This document shows, piece by piece, positions 12,154 through 17,307 of a DNA stretch of 17,635 nt. Source of the stretch: Giesbergeria sp. (GTDB lineage Bacteria; Pseudomonadota; Gammaproteobacteria; Burkholderiales; Burkholderiaceae_C); the NCBI GenBank assembly GCA_017998735.1, contig JAGOCN010000004.1, positions 1 through 17,635 of the forward strand, in the 5' to 3' direction. A program made the translations under genes and the position numbers. Position 1 is the first letter of the stretch; every line of letters begins with the position of its first letter. Below the pieces are notes generated by a model, which did no database searches, had not been told where the DNA came from, and saw only the letters and a program-made list of their open reading frames with translations.

Positions 12154-15100
12154 TCAGCAATCGGCTTCGTACTCGATTTCAGGCAACACCAATTCCCAGC
12201 GGGCGCAAGCGAGCTGGTCTTTGGGTTTTGCGTGGCGTACCTGGATGGCGGCAACGCGTGCAGCGACAAGGCGGCCGGGCGGTAGCTTGAACTTGGAAGA
12301 CATGCGGGTAACGGTCACGCCATGCTGATTGGCAAGCTCCCAGCCCTGCGTGGCGTCGTTGCGCTGTCGCATGGTGAGCGGGTCACCAACCTGCAAGGTG
12401 GCGATGGCAGGGTGAACAGAAGCAGCAGCCGGGAAGCGCCCGGGCCAGGAAAGCACCACCATCTCGGGACTCTCCGTTCGGGTGTGGGTAAGCACCATCG
12501 TGGGCAGCTGGACCGGCTCTGGTCGGGTGCGCAGCGGCAAGGACTGCAAACTTGAAATGAAGGCATGCCCGCCATGCTGGGTTTCACACAGCGTCAGCGT
12601 CAGGCGGGCCCTGGTCATGGCAACGTAGTACAGCCGCCGTTCTTCATCGCTGTGCTCGCACCAGCCACCGCTGTCGAGCACCAGCACATGGTCGAACTCC
12701 AGGCCTTTGGCACTGTGCGCCGTCATCAGCACCATGGGGGCGTGAGGGCGGGGCGCGTCAGGCTTGCGCGAGCCGCTGCCAAATTCGTACAAGGCGTCGA
12801 TGATCCCGTCGATCACCAGCGCGTAGCCGGGAGCTGTGGACACGGTTTCGCTGATGAACTGGGCCAGGGCAGCGAGGAAGGGGTGCTCTGTCCAGTCGTC
12901 CAGCCGCAAGCCATGGCGGCGCTGAAACCAGCGCGGCAATGCTGCCGCGCGCAGGGTCATGCGTTTGGCTCGGGTCCGTCGGTGCTCACCACGCAGCAGT
13001 GCCAGCAGTGCGTTGCCTTCGCGGCTGGAATACAGGGCAATGACGGAGGTATCGCTCAATAGATACGCGGGAATGCCACGTTGCCGGCACAGGTTGGTCA
13101 ATGCAGTGAGGTCGTTCCAGCGCCGAGCGATCACGGCGAAATGTCCCCAGCGTCCGGCGCTGCCGGTGTCGCTGCGCAGGGCATACAGGCGTTGCAGCTC
13201 GGCCAGGGCCATGGCCGCTTCCTGCAGCGGCTGTGCGGGGGTCGCCAGCACATGCACGCGCCCTTGGCCCCAGGAGTCGAGGCTGGCCCAGTGTCCCCCG
13301 GCAGCCTGCCCGCGTCGACCATGGTTGATGCACAAGGGTTGCTGCTTCATGCGCTCGCGCGTTGGCTTGATGAGCTGGCTGGCGCAATCGATGATGTGGC
13401 GACTGGAGCGGTAGTTTTCCAGCAGATTGAAACGGTGCGCCTGGTAGTCGGCCTCGAATTGGCGGATATAGCGCACGTTGGCCCCGCCAAAGGCGTAGAT
13501 GTTCTGGTCGTCGTCGCCCACGGCCATGAGCGACAGCCGGTCTTCGGCGGACGCCAGGGTGCGCCCTGCCAGCGCGCTGATGAGGGCGTAGTGTTCGCCG
13601 TTGATGTCCTGGTATTCATCAACCAGCACGAAGCGCAGGCCGGCCAGCAATCGGTCGCGCGCCACGGATGCTTCGTCGCCATCGCCGTGAGAGCTTTGTT
13701 GCAGGCGCTGCGTGGCCTGGCGGATCACGTTCTGAAAGTCGATGTTCTCACCGCGCTCCAGGGCTACTGCATAGCTGGTGCCGGTCAGGCGCATGGCCAG
13801 GCTGTGCAAGGTCTGGACCGAGACGCCGGCGGCGTCTGCCCCGACCAGCTGCCACAGACGGCTGCGGATTTCGTGGGCTGCGCTGCGGTTGTAAGTCAGC
13901 ACCATGATGGCCTCGGGTTCGACCAGGCATGCGCGCAGCAGCCAGGCCACGCGGTGCACGATGACGCGGGTTTTGCCCGAGCCGGGGCCAGCCAGCACCA
14001 GCTGGCTGCCTTCCAGCGGCGCGGCGACGATGGCCTGCTGCTCGGGGTTGGCCAAGTCAATCAGGATGCGTCGGTGGGCAGCTTCGGTGGTGGCCATTTC
14101 CAGCACCTCCTTGCGGCCGGCGAAATACTGTTTGATGAAGGTGGCGTGGTCGAGGCGGAAGTAATCCAGAATAAACTGCATTGCCGCCTGAAGCCTGTGC
14201 AGCGCCAGCTTGGCGAATTCGGCCATGACATGCACCTGGCCGATCTTGCTTTTGTAGTGCAGTGCCAGCTCGGCGTAGTCCCCCTTGTTGAACTGGCGGC
14301 GCTGCGCCGTGGGGTCGAATTCGATGCGCATGGCAGAGCGAAACACCGCTTTGCCGCGCGCCAGGTGCAGGACTTCGTTGGCATCCAGGTAGAGCAGGGC
14401 GGACGACAGGGCCAGGCCCCAGTCGCTGATCGCCATTTCGGCCAGGGTCGTGTCGCTTTGCAAAGCGGCTTCCAGATCGCCCTGTTTGCAGGTCACCAGC
14501 AGGGTATTGCCCTTGCGCAGCGTGGCAAAGTGCTTGACCAAGGCACGGGCCACGCGCAGGCGGCGCTCGCGAATGGTCTCGATGTCCTGCCAGCTGCGTA
14601 GCAACCTGATCTGGCGGTGTTCCGCGCTGCCGGGGCGCAGGGTGAAGCAGCCGCGCAGGCCATGGCCATCGCCAAAGGGCTCGGCGAAGGCCTTGAGCAG
14701 GCGTCCCAGCTGGTTGGGATCCAGATCGGCCTGGGCATCGCGCCGCATGGCGTCGCACAGGCGGCGCACATGCAGCAGTTGCCACTCCTGGTTGTCGGCG
14801 TCAGGCGCGGCTTCGCGCAGCTGGGCCAGCAGGGCGTCTTCCAGGCGCGCCAGTGCTTCCAGACGCTGCAGGGTGTCGGGGTCGCGGTAGAAGCTGACGC
14901 CGATCTCGGTGTCGTTGGACAGCAGCTTCCAGTGATCGAGTTCGCGCAGCATGGCGCCCACGGTGCGTGCGTCCTTGCCCATAGCCACCATCAACTCGTC
15001 GGTAGACAGGCTCTCCTCATCGCCGGCCTGCATCAATATGCCCAGAAGGGCCAGGTAGGGCTCGATATCGGCTGGGGTACCGATTCGGTGTGCGAGAAGT

Positions 15101-17307: not shown

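Follow-up and report, generated by a model that had tools for sequence, protein, structure and literature searches.

A helicase fusion between leuB and asd

The window analysed here, a stretch of 17,635 nucleotides from contig JAGOCN010000004.1 of a Giesbergeria sp. (assembly GCA_017998735.1), carries between leuB and asd a single frame of 1717 codons, 12154-17307, to which we gave the working name RUH. The frame lies on the minus strand, opens with an ATG at 17307, closes with a stop codon at 12154-12156, contains zero internal stops and has a uniform G+C along its whole length. The first-pass annotation, made from the letters alone, had described one frame bearing two complete helicase motors behind an exonuclease-like domain, lodged between leuB and asd. 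Frame, flanks and layout were confirmed: the motif sets of both motors are intact, both neighbouring genes are what they had been called, and the three-part architecture is borne out by Pfam for the motors and by conserved motifs plus weak profile matches for the N-terminal domain (Table 1).

Table 1. Coordinates of RUH, its parts and the flanking features in the window
Feature	Position	Strand	Remarks
RUH, 1717-aa DEDD-exonuclease-like / four-Cys / RecQ / UvrD fusion	12154..17307	minus	open reading frame, profile and homologue searches
DEDD 3'-5' exonuclease-like domain, residues 12-160	16828..17274	minus	D18, GHN...D75, N124, D129 kept
Codon 20, Gly in place of motif-I Glu	17248..17250	minus	with S126 defines one clade
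Linker module, residues 161-299, four invariant Cys (203, 263, 268, 271)	16411..16827	minus	alignment
RecQ-type superfamily 2 (SF2) core, residues 300-660	15328..16410	minus	Walker A K327, DEAH 425-428, motif VI 606-619
Middle region, residues 661-1080	14068..15327	minus	scattered weak winged-helix-like matches only; no RQC/HRDC match
UvrD/Rep-type superfamily 1 (SF1) core, residues 1081-1590	12538..14067	minus	GKT 1111-1113, DE 1230-1231, motif VI 1557-1568
C-terminal domain, residues 1591-1717, weakly conserved	12157..12537	minus	no credible solved relative by sequence
leuB 3' part (3-isopropylmalate dehydrogenase)	17329..17634	minus	truncated by window end; stop 21 bp ahead of RUH ATG
Thr-rich 35-aa leader frame MFAASPFLLNPAPATLAPAVAACASTSKTTTTITG ahead of asd	11995..12102	minus	-10-like TACAAT at 12111-12116
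asd (aspartate-semialdehyde dehydrogenase)	10724..11887	minus	266 bp beyond RUH

The fusion is shared by its homologues

Among 4574 homologues, the top 120 (the window's own protein is one) cover 96-100% of the query with identities of 63-100%, and all are fused. Since a protein must be 0.55-1.75 times as long as the query to enter this search, it is blind to short separate halves; a DNA-level search with no length filter recovered 374 relatives in genome contigs, the best 80 of which are mostly full length. Given this coverage and the mostly full-length relatives at the DNA level, a local frameshift or join does not explain the fusion, and such an origin was rejected on the intact frame, the even G+C and the full-length homologues. 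Two findings named beforehand as able to undo the claim, a frameshift within the frame or halves that are normally separate and fused only here, were not seen: the frame holds no frameshift, and at least 120 homologues are full-length fusions. The searches also confirmed relatives in other proteobacteria, as the first-pass annotation had stated. Among the matches listed, records with telling names are called RecQ family helicase or simply helicase.

Two intact motors behind a DEDD-like domain

Pfam places DEAD at 302-467 and Helicase_C at 515-619, which together form the RecQ core; its UvrD-helicase/UvrD_C matches are stretches within 1087-1574 (PF00580, 9.3e-43; PF13361, 8.1e-16). In an alignment of 88 rows that includes the window, both motors keep intact helicase motifs, for the most part without variation; the alignments leave out six frames below 500 bits as well as copies that are disrupted or cut by a contig end (frames below 1590 aa). 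RUH scores above the RecQ family cut-off (TIGR00614, 302.9 bits vs 219.8) and below the RecQ equivalog cut-off (TIGR01389, 337.8 vs 640.2), and no RQC, zinc or HRDC domain of canonical RecQ was found by Pfam at E 0.01. The second motor has the N- and C-terminal cores and the SF1 motifs of the UvrD/Rep group, at scores below both equivalogs (uvrD, 164 vs 1144.45; rep, 149.8 vs 951.45). The best solved relatives of the protein are RecQ, BLM, WRN and UvrD-type helicases.

The N-terminal domain is DEDD-exonuclease-like, judging from the conserved motifs and weak profile matches of relatives. The first 160 residues of the window copy have no Pfam match; across relatives the domain carries the motifs D-x-E, GHN(x4)D and N-D-P-x-x-D, 3/21 members weakly match the RNase_T profile (best E 2.8e-4), and solved exonucleases are weakly matched by relatives too (best E 3.6e-4). 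DEDDh enzymes have a His five residues before the last Asp and DEDDy enzymes a Tyr four residues before it. Neither hallmark is found at positions 124/125 of the RUH family, which in the 88 rows hold Asn (85) or Ser (3) and Asp (76), Asn (11) or Glu (1), respectively. Pfam and NCBIfam searches found no PD-(D/E)XK nuclease domain in RUH.

Cysteines 203, 263, 268 and 271 of the linker module are invariant in 88/88 rows, and the module is a probable metal or Fe-S site, with zinc or an Fe-S cluster as the possible ligand. A PDB sequence search with the four-Cys, middle and C-terminal regions returned nothing credible; the four-Cys matches were to unrelated proteins and look like chance.

Loss of the motif-I glutamate defines one clade

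The Glu of motif I is a metal ligand of DEDD exonucleases, a role we take Glu20 to have in the RUH family. Of 193 sequences, 158 have Glu at position 20 and 22 have Gly; the other 13 do not cover the position. D18, E20, D75 and D129 are each retained in all 158 Glu-type rows, so the family at large has the DEDD ligand set, and to this extent the early description of an exonuclease-like domain stands; for the window copy it holds only in part, as Gly20 replaces the motif-I Glu there. As a separate observation, residues around motif I are absent in twelve homologues (P0034, P0037, P0040, P0053, P0063, P0073, P0082, P0095, P0097, P0098, P0103 and P0119), which are probably records with misplaced start codons or cut ends.

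The Gly20 (G20) rows form one clade with one change on a 121-row tree calculated with the exonuclease columns left out (support 100), and again on a second tree built by another method from 41 rows and RecQ-side columns (support 98). Ser126 is present in all 22 of them and Pro in all 158 Glu rows. More broadly, G20, D31, F52, H81 and S126 are jointly fixed in 22/22, residues that are rare or absent in Glu rows, and D18, H69, D75 and D129 are invariant in the same 22. The rows are partly dependent: P0002 is the window gene with four residue differences, P0033 is contained in L056, and P0005 is nearly L047. When the divergence of the exonuclease domain is set against that of the rest of the protein, without the diagnostic columns, the ratio is 1.13-1.26 in G20 pairs vs 0.87-0.96 in Glu rows (the pairs are not independent). 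The pattern fits a catalysis that is lost or altered within a fold that is kept, and is not proof of inactivity.

Two other accounts of this clade have to be weighed. One is that its copies are decaying passengers which lost the nuclease by drift after insertion behind leuB and retain little function. The raised divergence ratio would follow from decay, as would the 25 other genomes of the genus that have no full copy; but the helicase motifs are intact, the frame has no internal stop in any of the four G20 genomes with known context, D18, H69, D75 and D129 are invariant, and the joint fixation of five exonuclease-domain positions looks like constraint. We regard simple decay as very improbable. 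The other account holds that the exonuclease still works in re-tuned form, an altered active site of different substrate or metal use being made up of Gly20 together with Ser126, Asp31 and His81. The joint fixation of five residues and the retention of three acidic ligands speak for it. Against it, DEDD enzymes that have been studied keep almost no activity once the motif-I Glu is gone, and we consider re-tuning unlikely. Most likely, the nuclease of this clade is absent or strongly changed and both motors are kept.

The clade is tied to the leuB-asd site

RUH lies between leuB and asd in 4/4 G20 genomes with known context vs 0/53 Glu-type loci, the latter having at least 1.4 kb of flank on both sides and including a few genomes twice. 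The four are the window, Comamonas badia (L043/L090), L047/L089 and L056. This coupling of the Glu loss to one site is the most surprising of the findings. Between the leuB stop and the RUH start, the window, L043 and L047 have 21, 10 and about 13 bp, respectively; in L056 an ATPase-like frame (8745-9935, DUF4143-like by eye) separates the two genes. Frames similar in look to the latter also occur near RUH in L025 and L035, and the one in L035 matches PDC-S01.

The site had been called unusual within a conserved leuB-asd neighbourhood. The first part is upheld; RUH was found there in no other genome of the genus, nor in any of the 53 Glu-type loci. The second part needs a qualification: where the two genes could be measured in the rest of the genus (18 genomes), their distance ranges between 44 and 1536 bp, and several of these genomes have other small frames in the gap. 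In three genus genomes no leuB was found within about 10 kb of asd, and in three contig ends limit the view. That most relatives might carry the gene at this site, which would have made it ordinary, is not seen within the genus, whose 25 other genomes, some of them incomplete, yielded no full copy; but RUH does occupy the same place in three genomes from outside the genus sample.

Between RUH and asd, the leader frame contains a run of Thr and Ile codons and is followed by a strong hairpin, and a leader end of the ...KTTTI(K/T)G type is visible in the aligned L117, L120, L124, L125, L130, L043, L047 and L056. It looks like a threonine attenuator of asd; Rfam gives no gathering-level match in the window. 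RUH lies upstream of this apparent control region of asd. A promoter scan found 0 sites, which says little because 0.5 were expected. In the G20 lineage, RUH is probably transcribed along with the leu operon, as its passenger.

RUH is patchily distributed, plasmid-borne and recurrently disrupted

RUH occurs in 10/399 genomes of the family and 8/399 of the order, each count including the window's own, and in 23/37 genomes of a Methylomonas genus. Among the 25 other genomes of the window's genus, some of them incomplete, no full copy was found, and one has a truncated copy elsewhere. Of 72,556 records of plasmids, 16 contain 80% or more of RUH in one place. Several copies are disrupted: L066 has an internal stop, L068 and L074 have split frames, L083 is split N-terminally and L076 contains inserted DNA. 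The copy in genome G399 has no C-terminal half, and the UvrD half was found nowhere in that genome. This truncated relative (L138, 3922-6309, same genus) comprises the exonuclease and RecQ part only, and its neighbours are, by their look, presumably Mu-like phage head genes. In genome G058, contig C2 has two nearly identical RUH copies (L097, L098) about 129 kb apart. Both the window's own genome and G399 hold separate RecQ-like and UvrD-like genes besides RUH.

Defence genes are enriched beside RUH

The first-pass annotation had proposed looking for defence islands around homologues, and for the family the outcome is positive. We compared 119 nearest-gene proteins from 18 loci on long contigs with 117 control proteins from stretches tens of kb off in the same contigs; 21 loci were considered, L083 being without a control and the disrupted copies L066/L165 and L076/L166 being omitted for a size limit. 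At E <= 1e-15 the neighbours match 198 PADLOC families, with type I and type IV restriction on top, and the controls 47, with mads and UvrD-like models on top (25 listed in each case); the best control match in that listing, 2.4e-53, is to UvrD-like models, the sorting being such that it is the strongest of the single-member families. Strong matches (E <= 1e-60) adjoin RUH in at least 8/18 loci vs 0/18 controls (Fisher two-sided p 0.0029), a minimum, as the gene-by-gene scan took in 30 of the 119 neighbours and defence genes at other loci may be missed. When L011 and L079 are merged the count is 7/17 (p 0.0072).

The neighbours are of several kinds. In L072, RUH is immediately preceded by ZorB, ZorC and ZorD and immediately followed by a UzuA-like gene (15096-15995, 1e-59). 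In L077, a Variovorax, a CBASS cyclase and effector lie upstream and a PD-Lambda-1-type frame (15055-16524) overlaps the RUH 3' end. L050 has type I R and M genes (4928-9974, with S by eye) on the strand of RUH; they stop about 55-65 bp short of it, an arrangement suggestive of co-transcription. Type I R genes are also found near RUH in L035, together with PDC-S01 and PDC-S02, and in L048 (E = 0); L011 and L079 have type IV enzymes and L013 has PDC-S15. Among annotated plasmid loci, one has a type I system and another a type I-D CRISPR locus. A tblastn search with ten chosen queries gave type I R-/M-like matches in L100, L035, L050, L038, L013 and L072 and type IV matches in L011, L079 and L076, neither kind appearing in 20 control stretches; it gave a ZorD-like match in one control and missed the type I gene of L048. 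By context only, the enrichment supports an antiphage or DNA-surveillance role.

The same data bear on a different possibility, that RUH is an accessory enzyme of DNA repair or recombination, a WRN-like exonuclease-RecQ joined to UvrD that serves stalled forks and the ends of the chromosome or large plasmids, its proximity to defence genes reflecting general island placement. Its domain content resembles that of repair enzymes, as do its best solved relatives; most neighbours among the loci listed are not defence genes; and carriage on large plasmids, with the high frequency in Methylomonas, would suit such a task. Against it stand the marked patchiness in family and order, the recurrent disruption, the enrichment beside restriction, Zorya and CBASS genes relative to controls on the same contigs, and the separate RecQ-like and UvrD-like genes of the window genome and G399. 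We regard a repair role as possible but less likely.

A proposed role for RUH

With roughly even confidence, we propose that RUH is a horizontally spread, stand-alone helicase-nuclease for antiphage defence or the surveillance of invading DNA, of which the G20 lineage in the leu operon kept the motors and lost or altered the nuclease. This rests on the architecture, the intact motor motifs, the DEDD set of Glu-type rows, the patchiness, the plasmids, the disrupted copies and the defence enrichment. A Glu-type RUH would load on foreign DNA that is replicating or broken, at its forks or 3' single-stranded tails; the RecQ motor would unwind, the UvrD motor would translocate or strip protein off the strand, and the DEDD domain would degrade the exposed 3' end. 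Two 3'-5' motors on one chain could run in tandem along one strand or pull on opposite strands. The Comamonadaceae-type G20 lineage would have lost the metal-ligand Glu of motif I once, behind leuB, and the main activity of its copy would be that of a translocase with two motors or of a protein that binds DNA ends, without normal trimming.

A number of observations weigh against this proposal. No phage record among 50,697 holds 80% of the RUH query at E 1e-60, and only one viral contig carries a nearly full copy (the search patterns for viral contigs were taken from the window protein alone, and distant forms could be missed); on these two results a phage-borne gene was rejected. No defence gene is present beside the window RUH among the neighbours named, and in 10/18 test loci no neighbour at E <= 1e-60 was located. 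That cut was picked after the data had been seen, and at 1e-50 two control families would pass (UvrD-like, 2.4e-53; mad3, 1.2e-50). With the congeners L011/L079 merged and L013, a candidate PDC family, dropped, the enrichment falls to 6/17 vs 0/17 (p 0.018). A second survey of 132 neighbours at 39 other loci is uninformative because the 25 listed of its 198 matches are all to UvrD-like models (GajB or RTasHel). In the Methylomonas loci L031 and L045 the neighbour is one that we take to be gatB-like, and GatB_N matches one neighbour protein.

The part of the proposal that concerns the G20 clade has its own difficulties. Loss of the nuclease is read from a single residue, and the relative rate of the exonuclease domain is only about 23-42% above that of Glu rows; because of this modest rise and the three other acidic ligands, invariant in 22/22, another ligand might compensate for the missing Glu. 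The tie to the leuB-asd site is informed by only four genomes, the remaining Gly rows coming without genomic context.

A bolder version, which we put forward tentatively, is that RUH represents an antiphage helicase-nuclease of undescribed architecture across Pseudomonadota, and that one Comamonadaceae-type lineage was captured behind leuB, lost the Glu once and became domesticated as a nuclease-silent dual motor made with the leucine operon. If true, a stand-alone helicase-nuclease with SF1 and SF2 motors on one chain would be added to bacterial immunity. The loss of one catalytic residue tied to one site would then be a natural experiment, in which homologues separate motor from nuclease function.

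Comparison with known systems

We found no paper describing this fusion in the open-access literature, subscription papers being outside the scope of the search; the early remark that no characterised function was known is borne out within that literature. The same annotation had likened the two motors to a RecBCD-like machine, coordinating two strands or handing substrates over. RUH does resemble RecBCD and AddAB in bringing several motor and nuclease activities into one DNA-end machine, but unlike them it is one chain and no PD-(D/E)XK domain was found in it. Helicases of the RecQ and of the UvrD/Rep family move 3'-5'; the RecB and RecD motors, in contrast, differ in polarity from each other. 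Because both motor families of RUH share one polarity and no PD-(D/E)XK was found, a RecBCD-like two-strand machine, as it had been stated, is not supported and was rejected.

Among defence systems, Gabija is alike in pairing a UvrD-like helicase with a nuclease, and PADLOC GajB models match the UvrD half of RUH (1.7e-49); the GajB matches, in contrast, do not include the RecQ core. GajA is a separate OLD-family nuclease (PMC10952713, PMC10822852). No constant neighbour gene of RUH was seen among the loci listed and six annotated plasmid loci, with no search by a GajA model across loci. PADLOC models of DpdF (1e-109) and PsyrT (2.8e-83) match the RecQ core, but the listed matches are confined to that core and RUH appears to stand alone. 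Hna is like RUH a single-protein helicase-nuclease of defence, with 3'-5' single-stranded DNA exonuclease activity; unlike RUH, it is a protein of 845 aa in which two SF2 helicase domains are followed by a PD-(D/E)XK nuclease at the C-terminus (PMC13381803), and the text consulted describes no UvrD or DEDD part. On architecture, identity with Hna was rejected.

As in the RecQ family (E. coli RecQ), the RecQ core of RUH is complete; unlike it, RUH has no RQC, zinc or HRDC match and is fused to exonuclease-like, four-Cys and UvrD parts. WRN-type proteins share with RUH a DEDD exonuclease-like domain that precedes the RecQ core, the WRN exonuclease being of the DEDDy type, but RUH differs in having an Asn (N124) at the general-base position, a four-Cys module, no RQC match and a second, SF1 motor.

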